The notes beneath the pieces were generated by a model. That model did no database searches. It was not told the DNA's origin and saw only the letters and a program-made list of their open reading frames with translations. Below are positions 4,969 to 55,941 of a stretch of DNA of 64,000 bases, in pieces. The stretch is from Alphaproteobacteria bacterium (lineage in GTDB: Bacteria > Pseudomonadota > Alphaproteobacteria > UBA9219 > RFNS01), in the NCBI GenBank assembly GCA_037200005.1, contig JBBCGY010000001.1, positions 1,015,812 to 1,079,811 on the forward strand. Reading direction: 5' to 3'. A program made the translations under genes and the position numbers. The first letter of the stretch is position 1. The number at the start of each line of letters is the position of its first letter.

Positions 4969-6405
<1,437 letters not shown>

Positions 6406-7290
6406 TTAAACGGCTTCCGCGCCGGAAATAATTTCGATCAGTTCCTTGGTAATGAACGCCTGGCGGCTGCGGTTATATTGCAGCGTCAGGCGGTTGATCA
6501 TGTCGCCCGCGTTGCGGGTGGCGTTGTCCATCGCCGTCATGCGCGCGCCCTGCTCGCCCGCCATGCTTTCGAGCAGCGCGCCGTAAATCTGCACGCCGAT
6601 ATTCTGCGGCAGCAGGCGCTGCAGGATCGCGGCTTCGCCCGGCTCGAACAGCGTCAGCGGATTCGCCGCGTTCTCGTTCGCCGGTTCCGCGCTTCCCGCC
6701 GTTACGGGGATCAGTTGATCGACCGTCACGATCTGGGCGATCACCGACTTGAAGCGATTGAAGACCATGCGGCAGACATCGAACTCTCCCGCCTGAAACA
6801 GCGCCAGGATTTTTCCGGCAATCATCTCCGCATCGGAGAAATCGAGCTTCTTGCGTCCGATCTCTTCCAGCGCATCGACCATCAAATGCGCATAGTCGCG
6901 CCGCAGCAGATCGCGCCCCTTGCGCCCGACGCAGAACAGCTTAACGGTTTTGCCGGCGTCTTGCAGAGCCTTGATCTGCTTGCGCGCCTCGCGCACCACC
7001 GAACCGTTAAATCCCCCGCATAGTCCGCGGTCGGAGGTTACGATCAGCAGCAGATAGGTCTCGTCCTTCCCGGTGCCGGAAAGCAGCGTCAAATTTCCGT
7101 CATCAAGCTGCAGATTGGCGGCGAGCGACTTCAGCATCCGCGCCATGGCGGAAGCATAGGGCCGCGCGGCCTCCGCCTGTTCCTGGGCGCGACGAAGCTT
7201 GCTCGCGGCGACCATTTTCATGGCCGACGTGATCTTGCGCGTCGACTTCACGCTGGTAATGCGGTTCTTAAGGTCTTTCAAGCTGGGCAT
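6406..7290 (-). CDS. atpG: ATP synthase F1 gamma subunit
   Basis: Rotor shaft of F1. The 294 residues start with [20 protein letters not shown] and end [20 protein letters not shown], the two conserved terminal helices that form the coiled shaft. In most alphaproteobacteria atpA lies directly upstream; here the upstream gene is a ferredoxin, so atpH and atpA must be elsewhere. The gap of 64 bases to the ferredoxin could hold a promoter, or the genes may be co-transcribed. Confidence 0.95.
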
Positions 7291-7354
7291 GACTGTCTTT
7301 TCCCCGATATGACGGCATCAGGTCAAGTTAAAAAACATGCAGGAAGTCAGGATG

Positions 7355-7693
7355 TTACAATAAACTCTGCGTCTCGGGCGGCAATCTGACCGTTAAGCCA
7401 TCGAGTTGCGGGGTCAGCTTGATCTGGCAACCGAGCCGCGAGTTCTTTTTGACGTGAATCGCCAGGTCGAGCATGTCGGTTTCGTCATCGTCCGGCGCAG
7501 GAAGCCGTTTCGGCCAATCGCCTTCCACCCAGACATGACAGGTCGAGCAGGCCAGGTTGCCGTCGCAAGTGCCGGGCATGTCGATATTGTGAGCGCGGGC
7601 GGCCTGCAGCAACGTCTGCCCCGCCTCGCCGGTTACTTCGCGCCGCGTTCCGTCGCGTTGGATAAAAATAATGGTAGGCATGGCTCCGTTCAC
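7355..7693 (-). CDS. [2Fe-2S] ferredoxin, adrenodoxin type
   Basis: Small soluble electron carrier. Four cysteine ligands are visible at 43, 49, 52 and 89 (CDGNLACSTC then GCQI), the C-x5-C-x2-C-xn-C spacing of the Isc/adrenodoxin class. The longest form uses a GTG that overlaps the livM stop. An ATG at 7681 preceded by GGAG is a more likely start and removes four residues. Its partner is not evident: neighbours are a transporter and ATP synthase rather than isc genes or a P450. Confidence 0.88.
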   Translation of the reverse strand: MNGAMPTIIFIQRDGTRREVTGEAGQTLLQAARAHNIDMPGTCDGNLACSTCHVWVEGDWPKRLPAPDDDETDMLDLAIHVKKNSRLGCQIKLTPQLDGLTVRLPPETQSLL

Positions 7694-9084
7694 CGTTTGA
7701 GAAAAATACCGGGCAGCCGCGTCGCCATCAGTCCGCCGGGACGCCAGATCATAATCAGCACCATGCCCGCGCCGAAGGCAATCATGCGGTATTGCTCAAG
7801 CTCGCGGAACAATTCCGGCAGGCCGATGATGAACAAAGCCGCCAGCACGATCCCCAGATGATGGCCCACGCCGCCGAGAACGACGATGGCAAGCACCGCC
7901 GTGGTTTCGGCGAAGCTGAAACTCTCCGGGCTGATGAAGCCTTGCCGCGCCGCGAAGAACGCGCCGCACAAGCCCGCGCACGCCGCCCCCAGCATATAGG
8001 CGCAGAGCTTGACGCGCGCCCGGTCGATGCCCACGGCGGCACAGGCTATTTCGTCTTCGCGCAGCGCCTCCCATGCCCGCCCGATAGGCAACCTGCGCAA
8101 CGCCCAGCTCAACCACCCGATGGCCGCCGCGAGAACGAACATCAGGTAATAAAGAAAGACCAGGCGGTGTATCGGCGCGAAGGGAATGCCGAAAAATTCA
8201 TGAAAGGTTCCCGCGCCGTTTTTCCCGCTCACCGCGAATTCCAGCCCGAACAGGCCGGGCCTCGGCACGCCCGATACGCCGTTCGGCCCGCCGGTCAATG
8301 TCGTCCAGTTGATCAGCACCAGCCGCACGATTTCCGCGAAGCCCAGCGTCACGATGGCCAGATAATCGCCGCGCAGCCGCAAGACCGGCGTGCCGATGAT
8401 CCCTGCCGTCATCGCAGCCAGTCCGCCCGCCGCCAGCAGCGTCATCCAGAAACCGATGCCGAAGGCTTGCGCCAATAAAGCGCATGTATAAGCGCCGATG
8501 GCGTAAAATCCGACAAAGCCGAGATCGAGCAGCCCGGCATAGCCGACGATGATATTCAGCCCGAAAGCCAGCGCGACATAGGTCAAGACCATCACCATCA
8601 CGTCGAGCATGTAACGGTCGGTAAAGGGCAGCAGAGGAAGCGCAACCGCCGCCAGGGCCATGACGCCGAGCGCGACATCGGCCATTCGCCCCGCTTTGGT
8701 TACGGGAAGAGCGAGCTTAAATCCTTCGGCAAAGAATTTTTGCCTTAGTCCCGCGAAACCGATGACCGCGCATCCCGCCACGCCGACAAAGCGCAAAAAC
8801 GGATTGGGCAGATCGGCGTAGTGCAGGACAACTCCCATGACCACGGCCAGCGCCGCGACGATGCCGGGGATGACCTTGACGAACCCGTACAGCAGCCGCC
8901 CGGCGAAAATCATCGCCGTGACATAGCCCACGTCGAGCAATCGCAGATCGAGCGTCAATCCGTCGGCCCGGTCGACGGTGCGGAATCCAGCAAGCGGCAA
9001 AGCGAGAACGGCGGCAATCGCCGCCGTGACCAAGGCATCGCGCCATGGCGCGCGCGGATCGATAGCGGGAGAAGGCGCGCTCAT
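7690..9084 (-). CDS. livM: Branched-chain amino acid ABC transporter permease LivM
   Basis: Inner-membrane permease of the Liv/HAAT import family. 464 residues with about eleven hydrophobic helices. The family core is clear (FGLNIIVGYAGLLDLGFVGFYAIGAYTCALL, given here only in name order: VGYAGLLDLG then GAYTCALL; later LRLRGDYLAIVTLGFAEI and TGGPNGVSG). The first 150 residues are an additional hydrophobic region, as in E. coli LivM. Overlaps livH by four bases. No livG or livF ATPase genes lie here. Confidence 0.9.
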   Translation of the reverse strand: MSAPSPAIDPRAPWRDALVTAAIAAVLALPLAGFRTVDRADGLTLDLRLLDVGYVTAMIFAGRLLYGFVKVIPGIVAALAVVMGVVLHYADLPNPFLRFVGVAGCAVIGFAGLRQKFFAEGFKLALPVTKAGRMADVALGVMALAAVALPLLPFTDRYMLDVMVMVLTYVALAFGLNIIVGYAGLLDLGFVGFYAIGAYTCALLAQAFGIGFWMTLLAAGGLAAMTAGIIGTPVLRLRGDYLAIVTLGFAEIVRLVLINWTTLTGGPNGVSGVPRPGLFGLEFAVSGKNGAGTFHEFFGIPFAPIHRLVFLYYLMFVLAAAIGWLSWALRRLPIGRAWEALREDEIACAAVGIDRARVKLCAYMLGAACAGLCGAFFAARQGFISPESFSFAETTAVLAIVVLGGVGHHLGIVLAALFIIGLPELFRELEQYRMIAFGAGMVLIMIWRPGGLMATRLPGIFLKR

Positions 9085-9998
9085 ACTTTTTCGATCTCCG
9101 GCCTGCCGAGCAAGCCATTGGGACGGACGGTCAGGATGAGGATCAAAATGACGAAAGCGGCGACGTCTTTATATTCGACGCTGATATAGCCCGACCACAG
9201 GGCTTCGATCAGCCCGATCAACAATCCGCCTAGCATCGCGCCGGGCAGCGAGCCGATGCCGCCCAGAACGGCGGCGGTGAAAGCCTTCATGCCCGCGAGA
9301 AAGCCCATATAAAAATCCACCACGCCGTAATACAGCGTCACCATCACGCCCGCGACCGCCGCAAGCGCCGCGCCGAGAAGAAATGTCAGCGAGATCACGC
9401 GGTCGACATCGATGCCCACCAGCGCCGCCATCGTCCTGTCCTGTTCCGTCGCGCGCTGCGCCCGCCCCAGCCCCGTTCCGCGAATGACCCAGGTGAATCC
9501 CGCCATGATGCCGAAGGTCAGCACGATGATGACGATCTGCAGATATGAAACCGAAACCGAAAAACCGTCCTCCCTGGTCAGCAGGGTGATGCCGCCCTGC
9601 ACCATCGGCGGCAGCGGCTTGACCCGCGCGCCCTGCAAAATCTGCACGTAATTCTGCAGCAGGATCGACATGCCGATGGCGGAAATCAGCGGCGCGAGCC
9701 GCCCCGCCTTGCGCAGCGGGCGATAGGCTATGCGTTCCACCGTCCAGCCATACAGCGCGGTGATCATCACGCTGACGATCAGCGCCAGCAGCAGAAGCAG
9801 CGGGATCGAACTCAGCCCCATGATGCCGAACAGCAGGAAGGTGATGACGGCGATGAACGCCCCGATCATGTAAATTTCGCCATGGGCGAAATTGATCATG
9901 CCGATGATGCCGTAAACCATCGTATAGCCGATGGCGATCAGCGCATAAATCGCGCCAAGCGTCACGCCATTGACGAGCTGTTGCAGAAAATATTCCAA
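9081..9998 (-). CDS. livH: Branched-chain amino acid ABC transporter permease LivH
   Basis: Second permease of the Liv transporter, with LivM. The hallmark block VTLGAIYALIAIGYTMVYG and INFAHGE near the start, plus MKAFTAAVLGGIGSLPGAMLGG near the end, identify it. I chose the TTG at 9998 because it gives LEYFLQQLVNG, matching family starts; a TTG at 10037 would add 13 residues and begin inside the upstream repeat. No good ribosome binding site marks either. A LivJ-like binding protein is encoded 33 kb away at 42953, but partnership is unproven. Confidence 0.88.
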   Translation of the reverse strand: MEYFLQQLVNGVTLGAIYALIAIGYTMVYGIIGMINFAHGEIYMIGAFIAVITFLLFGIMGLSSIPLLLLLALIVSVMITALYGWTVERIAYRPLRKAGRLAPLISAIGMSILLQNYVQILQGARVKPLPPMVQGGITLLTREDGFSVSVSYLQIVIIVLTFGIMAGFTWVIRGTGLGRAQRATEQDRTMAALVGIDVDRVISLTFLLGAALAAVAGVMVTLYYGVVDFYMGFLAGMKAFTAAVLGGIGSLPGAMLGGLLIGLIEALWSGYISVEYKDVAAFVILILILTVRPNGLLGRPEIEKV

Positions 9999-45991: not shown

Positions 45992-47215
45992 ATGAACCGG
46001 ATCAGCATCGGCGAAAAAATCTATTCCCTTGAATGGCTGCGCGATCAGGCATCGGCGGGGCAGAACGTGCTGCGCCGCGCGCATCAGGGCCGGATCAAGC
46101 CGCTGTGCCTGTGCGGGAATAAGCAAGTTGCCAAAGAACTCTATGTCGCCAAGCGTAATTTTTATTACCTGGCGAGGATGCCGGGAACAGGCAAGCTGCA
46201 TGCGCCGTGGTGCGATTTTTACGGCGACGCCGATGGCGGGCCTGGATCCAAATCGCAACCGGCGATTATCGAGAAAGAGGACGGCAGGCTTGACGTCAAT
46301 CTGTGGAGTCCGCTGACGCGGCCCGCGAAGACAACCGCACCGTCTTCAGAAACAAAATCACGACAGATAGAAAGGCCGGGCGTCTCCAGAGCTTCGATTA
46401 CGCTGCTCGGACTGCTGTATAAGCTGTGGCAGGACGGCAATCTGCATGTGTGGTATCCCGTGCGCAAATACGCGCGCACGATCAACACGATCCATAAATC
46501 GCTGAACGAGATCGCGGCTTACATGGATATAGGCGATGACGGCCTTCAAGACCGGTTCATAGTCACCAAATACCAGGATAGCTGGCCCGCCAGCGAAGCG
46601 AAAACCCGTGAAGCCATCGACGCGATCACTAAAGGCAAAGACAGCGCCGCGATCCTGATCGGCGAGCTTGAGGACTGGCGACCATCGCAAAAGGAACAAG
46701 GCGGCGCGGGCCTTAAAATCCGTTATCTGAAAGACTGCGTATGGATGGGCAAGGAACTGGCGGAGAGGATCGAAACGAGCTTCCAAAGAGAGAAAGCCTG
46801 CATCGACGACAAGAACCAGAAGATCATGGTCATATGCACGGTATTCCAAAACGGCGTCACCCTGAACGCCGATGACGCGGCACTGATGCGCACCAGCAAG
46901 GAATATATTCCGGTGGAGTCTTCCTATGAACTAGAGGTCACGCGCCGGCTTATCGAACAGGAGCGCAAGTTCAAGAAGCCGGTGCGCATGGATGAAAACG
47001 ATCAGAGGCCGGACTTTATTCTCCTGGATACCGATCCCAACTGGTTCATGGAAGTCTTCGGCATCGACAATGACGAAGCCTACACAGCCAGGAAACACGA
47101 AAAGCTCGCCGCCTATCAACAACAAGGCATCCCATGCTGGTCATGGGAAGCGACATCGAGCAAAACCATCCCGGCATTCCCGGCCCCCTCCCCCGAAACG
47201 CTCGACGAAGAATAA
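45992..47215 (+). CDS. DUF1173 family protein
   Basis: 407 residues. PLCLCGNKQVAKELYVAKRN followed by YLARMPGTGKLHAPWCDFYG is the N-terminal pattern of DUF1173, with Cys residues suited to a zinc site. DUF1173 proteins are usually carried by integrative and plasmid elements; the function is unknown. A C-terminal region with RRLIEQERKF and PDFILLDTDPNWFMEVFGID resembles a nuclease core with acidic residues, which is an inference. First gene of the accessory island. Confidence 0.8.
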   Translation: MNRISIGEKIYSLEWLRDQASAGQNVLRRAHQGRIKPLCLCGNKQVAKELYVAKRNFYYLARMPGTGKLHAPWCDFYGDADGGPGSKSQPAIIEKEDGRLDVNLWSPLTRPAKTTAPSSETKSRQIERPGVSRASITLLGLLYKLWQDGNLHVWYPVRKYARTINTIHKSLNEIAAYMDIGDDGLQDRFIVTKYQDSWPASEAKTREAIDAITKGKDSAAILIGELEDWRPSQKEQGGAGLKIRYLKDCVWMGKELAERIETSFQREKACIDDKNQKIMVICTVFQNGVTLNADDAALMRTSKEYIPVESSYELEVTRRLIEQERKFKKPVRMDENDQRPDFILLDTDPNWFMEVFGIDNDEAYTARKHEKLAAYQQQGIPCWSWEATSSKTIPAFPAPSPETLDEE

Positions 47216-47234
47216 AAGCGCGATGCTCCGCGCC

Positions 47235-47423
47235 GGGACAGGGCTGGGACCGGCGCCCCCGTCAGGCTGTCCTGCCGCTAGGTTCAGCGAATGCTGAACC
47301 TAGCTCGATCGCGCCCTTGACCGCCCGTGGGGCGGGCAAGGGTACGCCTATATCTCCGTCGGGTTCGACGGAGATATAGGCCGCAGGCCATCCTGACGGG
47401 GGCGCCGGTCCCAGCCCTGTCCC
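47235..47423. repeat. Cloverleaf-like nested palindromes, 189 bp
   Basis: A perfect 32-bp inverted repeat (47235-47266 and 47392-47423) encloses three separate hairpins: 11-bp arms at 47278-47288/47293-47303 (loop GAAT), 13-base arms with one mismatch at 47314-47326/47330-47342 (loop GTG), and 14-bp arms at 47347-47360/47367-47380 (loop GGGTTC). It lies 20 bases after the DUF1173 stop. As RNA or cruciform DNA this makes a multi-arm junction. No gene inside. Confidence 0.92.
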
Positions 47424-47509
47424 TCTGCGGCGTTGTGCCGGTCTGGCAAGTCAAGCGGCGAGATGGCAAAGCGCGTGACAGAATGGCGAGATGTTTGCCG
47501 AATTGCGCG

Positions 47510-47573
47510 TTGACGCCGGAGCGCAGCCATGCGCGGCGAGCGCCGCCGATGGGCGGGAGCCTCCCGGCGTCAA
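47510..47573. repeat. Second stem-loop before the Rhs gene
   Basis: TTGACGCCGG (47510-47519) pairs with CCGGCGTCAA (47564-47573), with an inner GCGGCG/CGCCGC helix. Together with the cloverleaf it makes most of the 530-base gap before the Rhs gene structured. No other feature seen in that gap apart from the Rhs ribosome site GAGGAGA at about 47737. Confidence 0.7.
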
Positions 47574-47748
47574 AGATAATCCGCGCGGAATGAGCCCGAC
47601 GCGGCGGATTTATCCTACCCATTTCTACATAAGCTTACTTTTTTCAATGGCCGGACGGCCGTATCGGGCGGATTTGGATTTGCCGCGCCGCGTCCATGAT
47701 AGAGCGGCCCTCCCCCGGAGCATTTCGCGCCGGGTTGAGGAGATAAGC

Positions 47749-50700
47749 ATGAAAAAGATAACGACGAGAAATTGGGTAGGAAGGGCGTTGGCCTTGCTGC
47801 TGATGGCGTGCATGGCAGTCATCGCGGTGCTGAGCGCCTGCACGGGCGGCGGCAATCGCGCTGCGCTGCCGAAGGAGAGTGTTGGCACGACGACGCAGGC
47901 CATCACGGGCATGACTGGGCTTGCGCCGCTGACGGCTGGCGTTGATTACTACGAATACGGCAATCTGTGTGTTTCGACATCCGAGGCGGCGGTGGCGCAA
48001 TGCGAGTTTCAGTCGATCTGCGTTCCCACCTATCTGCCTTCGTCATTGTTCATGCCGCCTCCCTCCGGCCCTTGCACGGGTAGAACAGGCTATGCCGACC
48101 AGAATTGCAGCAGCTGCATCAATGTTGCGTTCATGCATAACTATGCAGGAACGACCTGCCCTAGCGGGTTTATGGCTAGCGGCGTGTGCAAGGATCCGCC
48201 GGATGGCCAAGAAATCATCGACACGAAGGTGGAGGATGAGAAGATTCATGATTGCGGCGGAAACGACGAGCCACTAAGTCCGGGGCAGTCATTGATGAGC
48301 GGGGAGCAGCTTGCCGGTGTCGGCATGTGCGTGCCGAATGCGCATAAGATGCTGGCGAGTCTGAATCTGGTGGATACGCCGGTCGGCTACACGCCGGCGA
48401 AGGGGCCGGATATGCATATCCGGCTGACTTATAATCAGAGAGAGCCGGTTCCGGCGACCGCGCCGAACTACGGCAATGTCGGCCCGAAATGGAATATCAA
48501 CTTGACGTCCTATGTGCAGGACGACCCCTCGGTGGCGGGCAGCAAAGTGACGCGTTACGCGCGAGGCGGCGGCAGCGTGCTGCATAATGGCTACCCCGAT
48601 TATGATAGCGGCACGGGGAACTGGATTCCGGAGAAGCAATCCGGCGCGGTGCTGAAGCGGTTTCCCGCGACAGGAACGCCGGTCACGTCCTACACGCTGA
48701 CTGAGGTCAATGGCACGGTGCAGACCTTCAGCAAATTCGACGGCGCGAGCACGTATCCGCGCCGTGTGTTCCTGACCAGCATCACCGACCCGCAGGGCAA
48801 TGCGGTGACGTTCACTTACGACAGCACCTATCTGCGGGTGAACAGCATCACCGACGCGACGGGACGGACGACGACGCTCGGCTACACGGTGTCGGGGAAA
48901 CCTCTGCTCGTCTCGAGCATCACCGATCCGTTCAGCCGCTCGGCGACGCTGAGCTATGACGGCAGTTATCGCCTCGCGTCGATTACCGACGTGCTGGGGA
49001 TTACGTCGTCGTTCACTTACGACACGACGGATACGAGCTTCATCACGACGCTGACGACGCCCTACGGCAATAGCACCTTCGATTACGGAGGCGACTATAC
49101 TGCGGGAACGCGCTGGCTCGAACTGACCGACCCGGAGGGCAAGACCGAGCGCGTGGAGTATCGCGCGAGCACGGCAGGCATGTCGAACAGCGACGGTAGC
49201 GTGCCGAGCGGCATGACGATTGTGAATTCCGACTTGTCGAAGCGAAACACGTTCTATTGGAATAAACACGTCTTTGGCCTCTACGGCACGGACGACAGCA
49301 AGGCGGAGGTGACGCACTGGCTGGACGCGGGAGGCAACGCGCCCTCGCCGATGGTGCAGGCGCTCAAGCCCGCGCTGGAAAACCGCATCTGGTATAACTA
49401 TCCAAGCCAGAGCGCGGGCGACAAGGAAGGCACGCTCGCCGCGCCTACGGCGATGGGGCGATTGCTCGCGAGCAGCGTGACGCAACTATCGACGGCGACG
49501 TACAACAGTCTCGGCAAGGTGCTGACGGCGACCGACCCGCTGGGGCGGACGTTGAAATACACCTACGCCGGGAACAATATCGACCTGACGACGGTGGAGC
49601 GGAAAATCTCGTCGACGCCGACTTACGCGACGCTGGCGAGCTTCGGCACTTACACCAACCACCTGCCCGCGAGCTATACCGACGCATCGGGCCGGGTGAC
49701 GAACTACGCCTATAACGGCGCGGGGCAGCTTATCTACGCGACGAACGCGCTGAACCAAACCACGTTCAACGAGTACGACGCCTACGGAAGGCTGACGCGG
49801 GTGACGGTGCCCTATGCCGTGGCGTTCGGCAGCGTGACCTACGGCACGACGAACGCGCTGGCCGCGACGAAAGAGAGCTACAGCTATGACGGCTATGACC
49901 GCGTGGGCACGCTGACGGATTCGGAGGGCCGGGCCGAGACGTACGGCTACAACGCGCTGGATATGCTGACGCTGGTGACGTATCCGGACAGCACGACGGA
50001 CACTTACACCTATGACGGCACGAAGAAACTGAATCTGAACAGCCGCACCGACCGGCTCGGACGGACGACGAGCTACACTTACGACGACAACCGGCGGCTG
50101 CTCTCGCTCACCGAGCCGATTACCAGCGCGCCGCTCACCCGAACGACGAGCTACACCTATTACGACAATGGCGCGCTGCATACGCAGACGGACGCGAACA
50201 GCAACGTCACGACCTGGAGCATCGATATCGAAGGGCGCGTGACGGCGAAGAGCTTGGCGGACTCAAGCGCCGAGAGCTACGCCTATGAATCCGAAACCAG
50301 CCGCCTGCGCACGGTGACGGACGCGCTGGCGCAAGTGAAGACCTATACATACGATGTCGCCGACGAACTGACCGGCATCGGCTACACGAACGAGGTGAAC
50401 AGCACGCCGGACGTGACGTTCGCCTATGACACATGGTATCCGCGCCGCACGAGCATGGTGGACGGCATCGGCACGACGGCCTGGAGCTACATTGCGCCGG
50501 GCACGGACGGGGCATTGCAACTGCAGACGGAGAACGGGCCGTTCGCGTCGAACGACTCCATCACCTACGCCTACGATGCGCTGGGGCGTGAATCCTCCCG
50601 AACAGTATCCGGCGGGAATGAGAGCCTGACCTACGACACGCTGGGGCGGGTTGCGACGCATGTGAACAGCCTGGGCACATTCACCTACGGCTACAACGGC

Positions 50701-52002
50701 AGCACGAGCCAGGTGACGACGCGAACGCTGAACGGCACCAGCATCGGGACGACCTGGGCCTACGACACGAACAGCAACGACCGCCGCCTGACCAGCATCA
50801 CGAACGCGAACGGCCTCAGCGGCACCAGCAAGCCGAGGAACTACGCCTACACCTGGAGCGGCGGCAATCCGTACAACGTGACGAGCGTGGCGGAGAGCAA
50901 CGGCCCGTGGACGGGACAGACATGGAGCTACACATACGACCTGTCCGACAGGCTGACGGCGGCAACGACCGGCAGCCCGACGAGCTGGAACTTCGCCTAT
51001 ACGCGGGACAAGCTGGACAACATCACCACGCTAACCCGAAGCGCGGGCAGCGCTGGCGGCGGGTGGACGAGAAGCGCGAACAACGTCAATCAACTCACCG
51101 GAGCCGGGGTCCCAACCTACGACGCGGCGGGAGAGGTGACGGACGATTACAAGATGTACCGCCAGAGCTGGGACGCGGAACATCGAATGATAAAGGCGGA
51201 GTACAAGACCAGCTGGGGCGCTGGCACCTACACGAGCCAGAAGACGGAGTTCAAATACGATGGTCTCGGAAGGCGCACGGTTGAAACTGAATACGACAAC
51301 ACGGGAGCGTTCGCCTATGAATGGCACTTCGCATGGTGCCAAGACGAAATCTGCCAAGTGCGCTGGTCGTGGGGCGAGACAGTGGCGAGACGCTACTTCC
51401 CGGAAGGGCAATACGCGCTCGACACCGGCAAGAAGCATGTGCACATGCCGGACATGCTCGGTTCGGTGCGCGACATCGTGAATGTGAGCACGAGCGCGGT
51501 GGACTTCAGCATCGACTACGGCCCCGGAGGCGAGAGCATCCGCACGAACGGCAGCGTGTACCCGGACCACAGACTTGCCGGGATGTTCCAGGCCGGGCCG
51601 TACTTCAACTACCAAACGCGCTATCGCATCCTCGACCCGTTCTATCTGACGTGGCAGAGCCGCGACCCGATTGGTGAGAACGGAGGTATCAATCTGTTTG
51701 CGTACACGGGTGGAAGGCCGACGATGAAGACGGATAGGTTGGGGCTTAGTGATGACCCAGTAAAAGATATAGCAATGTGCCAAGCATTAGGAGGGGGATG
51801 GTGTAAGCCTACCGAGCCCCCATCAAAGGAAGAGTTCGATTGTGCGTTCCATTGTGCCATTCAAACAGCTCCTCTTTGCGCTTATGCTATGATGTTTGGC
51901 CCTTGTGGTCGCGCCCTAGGCTTGGTATGTCAGGGAGGAAGAGCGCTCTATTGCTCTGAGGTTGTTTGTGCCGATAAGTCTTCTGATAAGGGTAAAGAGT
52001 AG
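47749..52002 (+). CDS. Rhs/YD-repeat lipoprotein, polymorphic toxin
   Basis: 1417 residues from the ATG at 47749 (GAGGAGATAAGC upstream). A lipoprotein signal ends VLSAC, so the protein is exported and lipid-anchored. A Cys-rich segment (about 60-150) is followed by many YD repeats (YDALGRESSR, YDTLGRVATH) that form the Rhs shell. The core ends RDPIGENGG ... TDRLGLS near residue 1333, where the usual cleavage motif is DPxGL; here it reads DRLGL. The last 85 residues are a Cys-rich tip of lower GC. No VgrG, PAAR or Eag gene is nearby. Confidence 0.9.
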   Translation: MKKITTRNWVGRALALLLMACMAVIAVLSACTGGGNRAALPKESVGTTTQAITGMTGLAPLTAGVDYYEYGNLCVSTSEAAVAQCEFQSICVPTYLPSSLFMPPPSGPCTGRTGYADQNCSSCINVAFMHNYAGTTCPSGFMASGVCKDPPDGQEIIDTKVEDEKIHDCGGNDEPLSPGQSLMSGEQLAGVGMCVPNAHKMLASLNLVDTPVGYTPAKGPDMHIRLTYNQREPVPATAPNYGNVGPKWNINLTSYVQDDPSVAGSKVTRYARGGGSVLHNGYPDYDSGTGNWIPEKQSGAVLKRFPATGTPVTSYTLTEVNGTVQTFSKFDGASTYPRRVFLTSITDPQGNAVTFTYDSTYLRVNSITDATGRTTTLGYTVSGKPLLVSSITDPFSRSATLSYDGSYRLASITDVLGITSSFTYDTTDTSFITTLTTPYGNSTFDYGGDYTAGTRWLELTDPEGKTERVEYRASTAGMSNSDGSVPSGMTIVNSDLSKRNTFYWNKHVFGLYGTDDSKAEVTHWLDAGGNAPSPMVQALKPALENRIWYNYPSQSAGDKEGTLAAPTAMGRLLASSVTQLSTATYNSLGKVLTATDPLGRTLKYTYAGNNIDLTTVERKISSTPTYATLASFGTYTNHLPASYTDASGRVTNYAYNGAGQLIYATNALNQTTFNEYDAYGRLTRVTVPYAVAFGSVTYGTTNALAATKESYSYDGYDRVGTLTDSEGRAETYGYNALDMLTLVTYPDSTTDTYTYDGTKKLNLNSRTDRLGRTTSYTYDDNRRLLSLTEPITSAPLTRTTSYTYYDNGALHTQTDANSNVTTWSIDIEGRVTAKSLADSSAESYAYESETSRLRTVTDALAQVKTYTYDVADELTGIGYTNEVNSTPDVTFAYDTWYPRRTSMVDGIGTTAWSYIAPGTDGALQLQTENGPFASNDSITYAYDALGRESSRTVSGGNESLTYDTLGRVATHVNSLGTFTYGYNGSTSQVTTRTLNGTSIGTTWAYDTNSNDRRLTSITNANGLSGTSKPRNYAYTWSGGNPYNVTSVAESNGPWTGQTWSYTYDLSDRLTAATTGSPTSWNFAYTRDKLDNITTLTRSAGSAGGGWTRSANNVNQLTGAGVPTYDAAGEVTDDYKMYRQSWDAEHRMIKAEYKTSWGAGTYTSQKTEFKYDGLGRRTVETEYDNTGAFAYEWHFAWCQDEICQVRWSWGETVARRYFPEGQYALDTGKKHVHMPDMLGSVRDIVNVSTSAVDFSIDYGPGGESIRTNGSVYPDHRLAGMFQAGPYFNYQTRYRILDPFYLTWQSRDPIGENGGINLFAYTGGRPTMKTDRLGLSDDPVKDIAMCQALGGGWCKPTEPPSKEEFDCAFHCAIQTAPLCAYAMMFGPCGRALGLVCQGGRALYCSEVVCADKSSDKGKE
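51013..51747 (+). repeat. Rhs core-end repeat, expressed copy (735 bp)
   Basis: From the codon of LDNITTLTRSAG to the GLG/L end of the core motif. It matches 52364-53098 over the same 735 bases without gaps, in the same coding phase. Many third-position differences, about 11 amino acid changes. Confidence 0.92.
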
Positions 52003-52017
52003 TCAGGGAGAGGTACC

Positions 52018-52284
52018 ATGAAATGTCCACAATGCGGCGCTCGCATCAACTTTTTTAGTATGCTTGGATTAGACGATATTGTCGTGTGTCGTAATTGTGG
52101 GACTACCTTAGAGATTATCGGAAGCAAGAAGTTTGGAGTGGCTCTTTTTGTCTTATCTTTTTTTCCGGTCATGATATTTGCAAGTGTAAATTCCCCCGTT
52201 CTCTTGGTTGGAGTGCCTGTCTTTTTCCTTGCGTTGGGTTATTTTCTCTCTAAGTCGTTTTTGCGCCTGCAAATTAAGAAGTGA
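52018..52284 (+). CDS. Zinc-ribbon two-helix membrane protein, candidate immunity
   Basis: 88 residues: CPQCG and CRNCG form a zinc ribbon (Cys3, 6, 24, 27), followed by two hydrophobic helices (FGVALFVLSFFPVMIFASV; VLLVGVPVFFLALGYFL). GGGAGAGG precedes the ATG. It starts 15 bases after the Rhs gene and is followed by a terminator, the position of an immunity gene for the tip. The function is inferred from position. AT-rich compared with the core. Confidence 0.72.
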   Translation: MKCPQCGARINFFSMLGLDDIVVCRNCGTTLEIIGSKKFGVALFVLSFFPVMIFASVNSPVLLVGVPVFFLALGYFLSKSFLRLQIKK

Positions 52285-52300
52285 AGTTGGTTGGTGCATT

Positions 52301-52344
52301 AGGCCCGGCCCCCGCCCCAGGGAGCCGGGCCTTTTGCTTTTCTG
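52301..52344 (+). terminator. Intrinsic terminator after the first immunity gene
   Basis: GGCCCGGC / GCCGGGCC stem with TTTTGCTTTT after it. 43 of 44 bases are identical to 53729-53772. Confidence 0.85.
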
Positions 52345-52363
52345 CACCCCACTGCCCCAAGGC

Positions 52364-53098
52364 CTGGACAACATCACCACACTCACCCGAAGCGCGGGCA
52401 GCGCTGGCGGCGGGTGGACGAGAAGCGCGAACAACGTGAACCAGCTGACGGGCAGCGGCGTGCCGACGTACGACGCGGCGGGAGAGGTGACGGACGATTA
52501 CAAGATGTACCGCCAAAGTTGGGACGCCGAGCACCGCATGATAAAGGCCGAATATAAAACCTCGTGGGGCGCAGGCACCTACACGAGCCAGAAGACGGAG
52601 TTTCAATATGACGGCCTCGGACGCCGCACGGTTGAAACTGAATACGACAACACGGGAGCGTTCGCCTATGAATGGCACTTCGCGTGGTGCCAAGACGAAA
52701 TCTGCCAAGTGCGCTGGTCGTGGGGCGAGACGGTGGCGCGGCGCTACTTCCCGGAAGGGCAATACGCGCTCGACACCGGCAAGAAGCATGTGCATATGCC
52801 TGACATGCTGGGCAGCGTGCGCGACATCGTGAACGTATCAACGAGCGCGGTGGACTTCAGCATCGACTATGGCCCCGGAGGCGAAGCCATCCGCACGAAC
52901 GGCAGCGTGTATCCGGACCACAGACTTGCCGGGATGTTCCAGGCCGGGCCGTACTTCAACTACCAAACGCGCCACCGCATCCTCGACCCGTTCTATCTGA
53001 CGTGGCAGAGCCGAGACCCCATCGGCGAGAACGGTGGAACGAACCTCTACGCATATGTCGGAGGAAAGCCGACGATGAATGTCGACCCGTTGGGGCTT
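52364..53098 (+). repeat. Rhs core-end repeat, silent copy (735 bp)
   Basis: Same length and phase as 51013-51747. Differences are mostly at third codon positions; amino acid changes include Tyr to His (YQTRYRIL/YQTRHRIL) and Arg to Pro restoring DPLGL. Confidence 0.92.
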
Positions 53099-53371
53099 TC
53101 AAGAACTCCCCCGCAAGCTATCTGGGTGCCAGTTTTAACTCCCCCGATGCTCGTGCCGGGAACAGGAGACTTCAATGCCTTTCATAAGTGGTTCAACGGC
53201 ATATGCCATTCAGATTCCGAAGACACTAAAAACCCAGACAAAGCGAAGCATGAACATTGCGAGGCTCTTAGGCAAAGCATTCTTAATACTTGCGTGCCTC
53301 TTAGTGGCGCCAAAAAAGCTGCTTGCTTATGGGTGGCGAACACTACATATAATCAGTGCATGGAGGACTAA
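52364..53371 (+). pseudogene. Silent Rhs C-terminal cassette with alternative tip
   Basis: Repeats the core end of the Rhs protein (52364-53098) and continues to a different tip of about 90 residues (SRTPPQAIWVPVLTPPM ... VANTTYNQCMED), again with several cysteines. It lacks a start codon and signal of its own: the only in-frame ATG upstream lies inside the immunity gene. Its core motif is DPLGL, the standard form. One recombination with 51013-51747 would place it in frame behind the expressed core. The tip activity is not recognised. Confidence 0.85.
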
Positions 53372-53376
53372 CTAAC

Positions 53377-53703
53377 GTGACTGAATTCGTAGCAGAAAGA
53401 CAGCTTCTGTGTTCCTTGAAGGGAAGTGATGTCCGCAAGGAAATCACTATTGGTATCAGTGCACCCTTTTCCGTTAATCAAGACATGGTTAGTTTTGATA
53501 TAGGAAGCGGTCTTTTTGCATGCCGGGTGGAAGTGGTCGGCTTGGATGAAATAAGTCGGGACGTTTATGGCATGGATTCTTTCCAAGCGATTCATCTTGC
53601 AACGGATACGGTGGAGTCGTGGCTCCGGCAACTGCGTAAAAAATACGATATATATTTCCCAAATGGAGATGCGTATTTTGATAACGTTGTTGTGACAGAG
53701 TAA
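53377..53703 (+). CDS. Candidate immunity protein of the silent tip
   Basis: 108 residues from a GTG with GGAGG about 12 bases upstream; a GTG at 53356 overlaps the tip gene and adds seven. Soluble alpha/beta protein. The segment GMDSFQAIHLATDTVESWLR recalls small immunity-type (DUF6968-like) proteins, which I cannot verify. Directly follows the silent tip, and the second terminator follows it. Function inferred from position. Confidence 0.68.
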   Translation: MTEFVAERQLLCSLKGSDVRKEITIGISAPFSVNQDMVSFDIGSGLFACRVEVVGLDEISRDVYGMDSFQAIHLATDTVESWLRQLRKKYDIYFPNGDAYFDNVVVTE

Positions 53704-53728
53704 CTGCTAAAGTATCTGAGTCAGGAAA

Positions 53729-53772
53729 AGGCCCGGCCCCCGCCCCAGGGAGCCGGGTCTTTTGCTTTTCTG
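53729..53772 (+). terminator. Intrinsic terminator after the second immunity gene
   Basis: Same hairpin and T-run as 52301-52344, with a single C to T change in the descending arm (GCCGGGTC). Confidence 0.85.
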
Positions 53773-53780
53773 GTAGCTCC

Positions 53781-53811
53781 GCCCGCCCGGCTTTTAGCCC
53801 GGCGGGCTTTT
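53781..53811 (+). terminator. GC-rich hairpin followed by TTTT
   Basis: An imperfect GCCCGCC/GGCGGGC stem around CTTTTAG, then TTTT. Possibly a second terminator in tandem for the Rhs region. The following 430 bases up to the relaxase hold an inverted repeat but no gene I can support. Confidence 0.5.
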
Positions 53812-54056
53812 CTGTGTTTGCTGCCCGCCCCCCGTCTGACTCCATCGGCTCTGCCTGGGAAGAGCCGTGGCCGGGTTTACCGCCGAACTCGTTTCCCGCT
53901 TGAGTGTTCGCCGTTCGAACTGCCCGGTCTGACAGATAGAGTCTTGCCCATGGCCTGACGCCGAATGGGATTATCTCTGCTTTCAGGTTTTTTCGCCCGC
54001 CGATATTTTGGCGCTTGACTCTCGTCGGTTGTATGCGTTTTTATTATTTCCCTTGC

Positions 54057-54112: not shown

Positions 54113-54238
54113 TTCATTCTGAATCCCCGCCTCGCCATTCCGATAATTCCATAGCTTTTCAATCAGTTGCCGCCGTTGTCTCAAGCTCCATTTTCGAATT
54201 CGATTTATCTCGCATCGTCATTTCTGAGGAGACATTGC

Positions 54239-55419
54239 ATGATCGGCCAGGGCAGGACTTACGCGAGCGGCGCCGGTCGCGCCAAATATCTGTTCCGGCC
54301 CAAAAACGGCGAAACGGTCGAGGTCTATCAGGTTCGCGGTTCGGCACGGACGACCCGGCCGAGGCGCTCAAGAGCATCGACTGGCAGGCGATGCGGCTCG
54401 CCACCCGCAGCACGGAACCGATTTACGGGGCGCATCTGCGCTGCCCGCCGCATGAGGATTTGCCGGATAAGGATTGGGAGTATGCCGCCGACTGGATCGA
54501 AGCAAAACAGAACCTTTCCGGTCATGCGCGGATAATCGTGTTTCACACATCCCCGGACGGCTGGAAGCACATGCATGTGGTCTGGAACCGCATCGACCCG
54601 GACACGCGGCTGGTGAAGAAGGAAGGCTACAGCCACAAGAAGCTGAAAGAGGCGGTGCGGGAAATCGAGATTTTCCTGGGGCTTTCGCCCGCGCCGCGCC
54701 GCAAAAAGGAAGAGGCGAAACCTCACGTCGACGCGGGCTTCATTCGGCAGGTGCGGCGGTTTGGAATGGAGCTTGAGGAGTTTCGAGCGCATATCGGCGA
54801 CATATGGAAACGCTCGGACAGCGGCAAAGCATTCGCCGTGGGACTGGCGGAGAGCGGCCTTCTGCTGGCGCGTGGCGACAAGCAGGATTTTGTGGCGGTC
54901 GACAGGCACGGCGGAGTTTATAGCCTGCCCCGGCTGATGGGGATGAGGCCGGACATACTGCGACGACGGTTCGCGGACATCGACAATGCGCGACTTGGCA
55001 ACGTCGCGGAAGCGGAGGCGATGTTCGCGCGGCTGGGCGCGGCGGCTCCGGCGCAAGAACCGGCGAAGCCAGCCATCATTCTTCCTGCTGCGGTGGCGGA
55101 AATAACGGCTCCGCAGTCCAAAGCGCCAGCACTCATCCCCGCGCCCGCGTCGAAACTCGACATCCGCGCCGAATGGAAACGGGAGGCGGCGGCGCTGCTC
55201 AAGAATACGCGCTCGGCTATCCGCGACGCCTGGCGCAAAACCAGAACCATCCTGGGCTTCGTCAGAAAGCTGTCGGCGCAAGATATGAAACTGGAGCACG
55301 GCATCCGCGACTCTTACGCTGTCATCGACGCGCAAGGCGTCAAACACCCGCTGCCGCGCCTGCTGCGTGAGAAAGCGGCGGACGTGCGCAAGAAGCTTGG
55401 GAGTCTGGACTCCGGATAG
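54239..55419 (+). pseudogene. Conjugative relaxase, interrupted by a frameshift
   Basis: The first 34 codons (GQGRTYASGAGRAKYL ... VEVYQVRG) are in one frame. From about 54341 the protein continues in another: FGTDDPAEALKSIDW, then HARIIVFHTSPDGWKHMHVVWNRID (quoted partly), the His-x-His-x3-Asn motif that binds the catalytic metal. Restoring one T in GGTTCGGC gives a smooth join VRG-FGTDD. The full protein is about 390 residues with a helical C-terminal region. Whether this is a real mutation or a sequencing error is open; programmed slippage seems unlikely as no X-XXY-YYZ heptamer lies at the join. Confidence 0.82.
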
Positions 55420-55473: not shown

Positions 55474-55791
55474 ATGATGATGGATACAAACCACCTGCCC
55501 GCTCTTCCGGCGTTCAAGGCCGCCGTCGAAGAATTGCGCGAGTTCGGCATCGTGCTGACGATGTCGCCAGGAGAATATAAGGTGAATTATCGCGGCGGAA
55601 CGCCCGCAACAGCCTATCGCTCCGACGATCTGGCCGACGCCGTGGAGCATGCCCGCGCCATGGCATCGCTTCGGCCGGCCTCGTCGGAGCCGCCGCTCGG
55701 CCCGATGTCCCGTGCCAGTTCCCATCGCAGCAAAATGTACAAGCACAATGCCAAGGTCGCCGCGCGGCGGCGGAAGGCGCGGGGTGGATAG
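55474..55791 (+). CDS. Unknown small protein following the relaxase
   Basis: 105 residues. N-terminal half mixed alpha/beta (FGIVLTMSPGEYKVNYRGGT; YRSDDLADAVEHARAM), C-terminal half strongly basic (HRSKMYKHNAKVAARRRKAR), suggesting nucleic acid binding. GAGGAC upstream of the ATG. Typical of small genes on mobile elements but no family named. Confidence 0.62.
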   Translation: MMMDTNHLPALPAFKAAVEELREFGIVLTMSPGEYKVNYRGGTPATAYRSDDLADAVEHARAMASLRPASSEPPLGPMSRASSHRSKMYKHNAKVAARRRKARGG

Positions 55792-55835
55792 CCAAAGTTT
55801 TTTTGTCGGGAGTTCAAATCCCACGGATGATACGA

Positions 55836-55869
55836 CCACACATAAGGGGCTAAAGCCCCTTATGTGTGG
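55836..55869. repeat. 16-bp perfect palindrome abutting tRNA-Met
   Basis: CCACACATAAGGGGCT and AGCCCCTTATGTGTGG are exact inverted copies separated by AA. It includes the CCA end of tRNA-Met. It may be its terminator (no long T-run follows). On its other side a T-arm-like GGGAGTTCAAATCCC and a CCA lie in the opposite direction. Confidence 0.75.
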
Positions 55870-55941
55870 TAGCAGCGGAGGGATTTGAACCCCCGACCAA
55901 GGGATTATGATTCCCCTGCTCTACCACTGAGCTACGCTGCC
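55867..55941 (-). tRNA. tRNA-Met(CAT), elongator type
   Basis: 75 nt with encoded CCA. Acceptor GGCAGCG pairs with CGCTGCT (first pair G-T). D-arm AGCTCAGTGGTAGAGC; anticodon stem GGGGA/TCCCT around ATCATAA; T-loop TTCAAAT. Not the initiator, which has a C at position 1. Modification to read Ile (lysidine) cannot be excluded. Confidence 0.9.

Follow-up and report, generated by a model that had tools for sequence, protein, structure and literature searches.

The window analysed here, a stretch of 64,000 nucleotides on contig JBBCGY010000001.1 of an Alphaproteobacteria bacterium (assembly GCA_037200005.1), contains an rhs locus, referred to below as locus A, in which a long gene ending in one C-terminal tip is followed by a shorter unit that repeats the end of the Rhs core and ends in another tip (Table 1). 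The main gene matches the RHS_repeat profile (E=1.2e-38), its best sequence matches in the PDB are solved Rhs cores, and the core ends of both units score above the cut-off of 32.5 bits for Rhs_assc_core TIGR03696 (33.1 bits for copy 1 and 40.7 bits for copy 2). Its likely start is at 47749, giving MKKITTRNWVGRALALLLMACMAVIAVLSAC, a signal peptide with a lipobox; the start at 47491 in the list of open reading frames was rejected as too early, there being no signal peptide at that position and 47749 being common to locus B, one of two further rhs loci (B and C) in the genome. At the junction before the tip, canonically DPxGL, the motif is seen in copy 2 (DPLGL) and in locus C (DPSGL), while copy 1 reads DRLGL and locus B reads DRDGR.

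The two core ends form a 735-bp pair without gaps, offset by 1351 bp. A previous sequence-only reading had described the core end as repeated exactly in length, with both copies beginning at a first codon position. Length and phase bear this out, both copies lying in the frame of the Rhs protein, but the sequences themselves are only 88.6% identical (84 differences over 735 bp), and an identical duplication was rejected on this ground. The differences are distributed 12/11/61 over codon positions 1/2/3, 55 of the 66 changed codons being synonymous and 11 nonsynonymous, and the longest identical tracts measure 60, 59, 53, 53, 47, and 47 bp. Beyond either end of the repeat the likeness falls abruptly to chance level (13 of 60 bases match). 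Given this abrupt drop, the level of identity and the mainly synonymous changes, the duplication has edges exact in length and phase, yet it is not recent throughout. The order in which each copy is followed by a tip, an immunity-like gene and a terminator was likewise confirmed; the terminators are identical at 43 of 44 positions and both fold as strong hairpins. Copy 2 and tip 2 together form 335 open codons without stop or frameshift, the frame ahead of copy 2 is open through terminator 1, and a scan for one promoter type found neither a promoter-like site nor a start for this orphan cassette.

Table 1. Features of locus A and its flanks, in window coordinates.
Feature	Position	Strand	Details
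DUF1173 protein, putative left side of the element	45992..47215	+	Pfam PF06666, E=3.8e-45
Imperfect inverted repeat (~200 bp) ahead of rhs	47228..47430	.	Within first part of block 47227-47860 common to locus B (82% identity); repeat itself partly conserved there
Signal peptide with lipobox V-L-S-A-C (Cys31)	47749..47841	+	
Main rhs, ~1417 aa: lipoprotein signal peptide, Cys-rich N-terminal region, YD repeats, Rhs core, tip 1	47749..52002	+	
Core end copy 1 (expressed)	51013..51747	+	
Tip 1: 84 aa, 10 Cys, after DRLGL	51748..51999	+	No detectable relatives
Immunity-like gene 1: 88 aa, N-terminal zinc ribbon, hydrophobic C-terminal half	52018..52284	+	Pfam PF21344, E=1.3e-7
Intrinsic terminator 1	52301..52344	+	Hairpin -33.6 kcal/mol, z=-5.4, then TTTTGCTTTT
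Core end copy 2 (orphan; no own start signal recognised; ends in canonical DPLGL)	52364..53098	+	
Tip 2: 90 aa, C-x10-C-x10-C-x10-C	53099..53371	+	Single-sequence model
Immunity-like gene 2: 108-aa DUF6968 protein, GTG start, GGAGG just upstream	53377..53703	+	PF22302, E=9.8e-7
Intrinsic terminator 2	53729..53772	+	Continuation 53729-53827 common to locus C (85% identity)
MobA/VirD2-type relaxase	54235..55419	+	PF03432, E=1.1e-12; homologue at B, C-terminal remnant at C
Small 105-aa gene	55474..55791	+	Homologues directly downstream at loci B and C
tRNA T-arm/acceptor-like fragment with CCA	55808..55838	+	Adjoins tRNA-Met 55867-55941

The two tips are mutually unrelated and both rich in cysteine, and the small gene after either of them has a plausible ribosome-binding site. 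Neither tip 1 nor its zinc-ribbon partner has convincing relatives; among solved structures tip 1 found no match and tip 2 a single chance match, searches of the tips and partner proteins against plasmids returned nothing, and PHROGs yielded nothing for the small genes beyond a weak zinc-ribbon match to gene 1. Gene 2 meets its DUF6968 profile at 29.0 bits (cut-off 27). The model of tip 2 is a helical hairpin over residues 46-89, with a predicted local distance difference test (pLDDT) score of 72-85 per block from residue 41 and a whole-model mean of 66; that of its partner has a pLDDT of 34 and is unusable. Phospholipase A2 is a lead for tip 2 and no more: Foldseek ranked a fungal enzyme first (E=0.7), with a bacterial counterpart in third place (E=4.0), but there was no support in sequence, and the helical hairpin is generic.

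A pairing similar to that of tip 2 recurs on a different carrier. At 1456-2780 on the minus strand of another record (L116), from an unrelated genome, a protein resembling an HK97-type prohead protease, so named from sequence features seen by eye, ends in the tail C-x10-C-x11-C-x10-C and is followed after a short gap by a DUF6968 gene. Searches for DUF6968 in viral contigs and for this pair in phage records returned nothing; it is a possible phage-borne toxin/immunity pair. Because two different carriers share a similar tail and the same partner family, the recurrence supports a toxin/immunity reading of locus A, though as one extra case only, and we suppose that the tips are toxic and that the small genes confer immunity. 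The tips could instead be disulphide-braced surface or adhesive modules, with the lipoprotein Rhs serving in contact or predation and not in killing. They are small and cysteine-rich and match no enzyme, tip 2 being modelled as a hairpin of 44 residues, and an envelope lipoprotein need deliver nothing. We nevertheless hold this explanation to be improbable, since each of the four tips in the genome is followed by a different small gene, as in toxin/immunity systems, and the DUF6968 pairing is found again with a different carrier.

Taken as a whole, locus A is in our view quite likely a polymorphic-toxin Rhs locus, with a lipoprotein carrier loaded with tip 1, an orphan tip 2 cassette that could be loaded by recombination, and a place among the cargo of a mobilizable element. 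As the carrier is made with a lipoprotein signal peptide, it would leave the cytoplasm through Sec and most likely stay anchored to the cell envelope, currently bearing tip 1 and followed by the tip 1 partner gene and terminator. Behind this terminator lies a single orphan cassette, made up of a core end, tip 2, the DUF6968 partner and a terminator of its own but lacking recognisable start signals, and homologous recombination between the 735-bp core ends would load tip 2 in frame with its immunity gene alongside. Core ends may also be exchanged between loci A, B, and C, as the genome holds two further versions of the element. Both display on the surface and switching within a population would be expected of such a system.

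That orphan Rhs tips are known from enterobacterial rhs loci, as had been pointed out earlier, is borne out by Salmonella (PMC3967940) and by Dickeya and Yersinia (PMC3150448). In Salmonella LT2 the stretch common to the main and the orphan rhs measures 522 bp, with 95% identity, and experiments showed that recombinants deploy the orphan toxin (PMC3967940). Locus A resembles the orphan rhs-CT/rhsI modules of the Enterobacteriaceae in its order of main rhs, tip, and immunity-like gene, then core fragment, second tip, and immunity gene without start signals, and in having homologous core ends, here 735 bp at 88.6% identity (PMC3967940; PMC3150448). It differs from them in the Sec lipoprotein signal of the carrier, in the terminator between the units, in the relaxase backbone downstream, and in its cysteine-rich tips without a toxin-family match, in a genome where no gene for a type VI secretion system (T6SS) sheath was found.

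Comparison of the copies with locus B provides plausibility to past exchange. Between loci A and B, about half of the fourfold sites differ (0.51) in the 5′ part of the gene and 0.30 from about 49.5 kb on (change point, permutation p=0.0015), the jump in identity lying in the 3′ third of the core. Over the length of the 735-bp repeat, copy 1, copy 2, and B alternate as mutual nearest relatives: neighbouring informative codons share their pattern in 77 of 110 cases (46.4 expected, p<5e-5). Copies 1 and 2 differ by 2.9% over codons 176-210, a segment in which each of them stands 28-30% apart from B, but by 24.8% over codons 211-245. Based on this patchwork and on the abrupt change between A and B, past exchange among the copies is probable, on evidence that is good and not conclusive, and the same mosaic suggests that recombination of core ends occurs.

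Several observations weigh against the proposed locus function and its switching. Tests of two-parent recombination on the 735 bp were marginal (p=0.03-0.06), and patchy constraint could mimic part of the mosaic. The 11.4% divergence of the repeat may make exchange slow; given the 5% over 522 bp in Salmonella, spontaneous deletion would be expected to be rarer here. The sequence-only reading had a crossover remove 1351 bp and join the core to tip 2 in frame; the shared frame and the retention of immunity gene 2 agree with this, but immunity gene 1 would go as well in a simple deletion. For Salmonella, where a plain deletion would cost the cell the main immunity gene, a duplication of the locus is for that reason inferred to come first (PMC3967940), and this caveat applies to locus A too. 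No isolate with the 1351-bp deletion was seen, and locus A was absent from the relatives searched; the kinship tables show no genome of the same genus. As to the tips, neither matches a known toxin family, the 88-aa gene has one copy in the genome and one marginal match in 397 other genomes, with no evidence of linkage outside locus A, and among 398 sampled genomes DUF6968 occurs in 9 besides this one, with a cysteine-rich tail next to it in only 1 of the 9.

The same data bear on two other explanations of the downstream unit. It could be a dead relic of C-terminal displacement, in which insertion of a new core end with tip 1 has left the older tip 2 unit to decay, without any switching. The lack of a recognisable start or promoter-like site, the terminator ahead, and the larger number of sites of difference at which copy 1 rather than copy 2 agrees with locus B (44 vs. 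26) are compatible with such a history, and decay does occur in this genome, the tip frame of locus B being apparently broken and locus C a remnant. However, 335 codons without stop or frameshift, a divergence that is synonymous five to one, an intact partner gene with a good ribosome-binding site, and core-end patches almost identical to copy 1 are hard to reconcile with decay, and we regard a relic as unlikely. Somewhat less likely still is that the cassette is kept chiefly for its immunity gene, which would guard the cell from kin or element-mates armed with tip 2. Orphan modules do carry intact immunity genes, and the collecting of such genes has been discussed for Rhs and contact-dependent growth inhibition (CDI) systems (PMC3150448); yet this leaves unexplained why a 735-bp core end and a whole tip stay open and in phase, and the scan for one promoter type found no promoter-like site before gene 2. 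A cassette that can be loaded by recombination remains the reading we favour.

A wider context is evident in loci B and C, which together with the relaxase backbone extend beyond what the sequence-only reading had seen. In all, four core ends are present in the genome (A1, A2, B, and C), each with a tip unrelated to the others and a different partner gene. Locus B (contig 1, ~1155-1160 kb) is a full Rhs frame with a TPR/C39-peptidase-like N-terminus and a DUF4279 gene after the tip. At its core/tip junction (L005, 10646-10733) the core frame enters an unrelated reading; because a plausible tip lies in a frame other than that of the core, locus B appears to have a broken tip, unless the assembly is in error. 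Locus C (1531 kb) is a remnant. Its core end is 43% identical to copy 1 and its tip is intact, followed by a partner open reading frame of 80 aa and the terminator. A relaxase followed by the same small gene is present at A, B, and C, the relaxase of C being a remnant only. Because the three loci share a terminator, a relaxase or its remnant, and the small gene, the Rhs genes are best seen as cargo of related mobilizable elements. The closest plasmid-borne relatives of the core end, on Nitrosospira (18.9-kb), Methylosinus (22.5-kb), and Rhizobium plasmids, point the same way. These C39-like Rhs proteins are 31-39% identical to the core end and 40-50% identical to the N-terminal region of locus B, and they differ from locus A in having an ordinary Sec signal without a lipobox.

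The N-terminus bears on delivery. Loci A and B carry the lipobox VLSAC, and the nearest relative, L034, carries LVIIAC, each with an n-region, a hydrophobic region, and the lipobox cysteine, as called by eye and by pattern; loci A and B open with nearly the same leader. Where a C39-like domain stands in relatives, locus A has a short cysteine-rich segment. In the source genome, which is 95% complete, the T6SS sheath protein VipB was not detected, and Pfam found no PAAR domain at the Rhs N-terminus. As there is no VipB match in the genome, delivery by a T6SS is unlikely, and a T6SS effector was rejected on these grounds and on that of the lipoprotein signal.

A lipid-anchored Rhs protein with cysteine-rich tips had been called less usual. 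The lipobox is real and uncommon among relatives, nearly all other long Rhs frames in the sample with a readable signal peptide having ordinary Sec signals; cysteine-rich tips, however, are found in three relatives (L046, L077, L106), and earlier work has predicted YD proteins with a lipid anchor (PMC13018210). The latter are the bacterial teneurin-like proteins, which likewise combine a YD shell with polymorphic C-termini and whose Gram-negative members are predicted Sec/SPII lipoproteins (PMC13018210). Locus A differs from them in that no NHL or FN-type domain was detected in its N-terminal half, Pfam returning for 47749-49500 at E<=10 only RHS_repeat and one chance match, and orphan cassettes are absent from the text of that study. 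The MafB toxin system of Neisseria, with its silent cassettes ready for recombination, is also comparable. Its carrier is surface-associated like that proposed here, yet unrelated, and the lipid anchor is on a separate protein, the lipobox being carried by the partner MafA (PMC3482391). In the open-access papers covered by the search, no description was found of a lipoprotein Rhs together with an orphan cassette and a relaxase backbone.

Among about 85,000 species genomes, the nearest relative (L034) lies on a contig binned as Myxococcales and is 52% identical over the core end; it has in common with locus A the cysteine-rich N-terminal segment as well as the lipobox. This rhs gene adjoins a tyrosine recombinase gene, and the binning may be wrong. 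Orphan core ends are common in relatives, as shown by core ends spaced too closely for full genes, an argument that leaves out pairs far enough apart for two full genes (e.g., L044 and L056). An extreme orphan-tip array is that of Lentisphaerae bacterium WC36 (L064, CP085689.1), with 12 Rhs core-end copies in 18 kb. A relative of the same class (G098; L126, reverse complement, 5051-9459) has three consecutive core fragments with different tips, one of them nuclease-like with a separate small gene. A search of genome and viral contigs with the core alignment A1 returned nothing.

If the proposed reading of locus A is right, the orphan-tip mechanism known experimentally from enterobacterial rhs would extend to a lipoprotein Rhs in a genome without a detectable T6SS sheath gene, and would be tied to mobile DNA. 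Should the tips prove active, the way in which a lipid-anchored Rhs protein attacks its neighbours could be tested compactly at this locus, and DUF6968 and the zinc-ribbon protein could be studied as two candidate families of immunity protein. More tentatively, and with considerable doubt, one may envisage a family of mobilizable elements that carry an envelope-anchored, T6SS-independent Rhs weapon. Its cysteine-rich tip cassettes would be exchanged inside a locus as well as among copies of the element in a single genome, and whenever the element was transferred, tips and immunity genes would spread and be reshuffled with it.

With respect to the limits of the element, no DUF1173 copy was found among the relatives fetched. 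The tRNA-like fragment at the right end is a possible remnant of an integration site; it occurs once in the genome, and no integration partner was found. Around locus B (L005/L027; contig 1, ~1149-1171 kb) lie a Hachiman-like pair (HamB, E=6e-53; HamA-like DUF1837, E=9e-5), a PDC-S19 candidate defence gene, a second relaxase, and a serine recombinase gene whose end overlaps a tRNA-Glu gene, and these surroundings likely represent an integrated mobile defence island.

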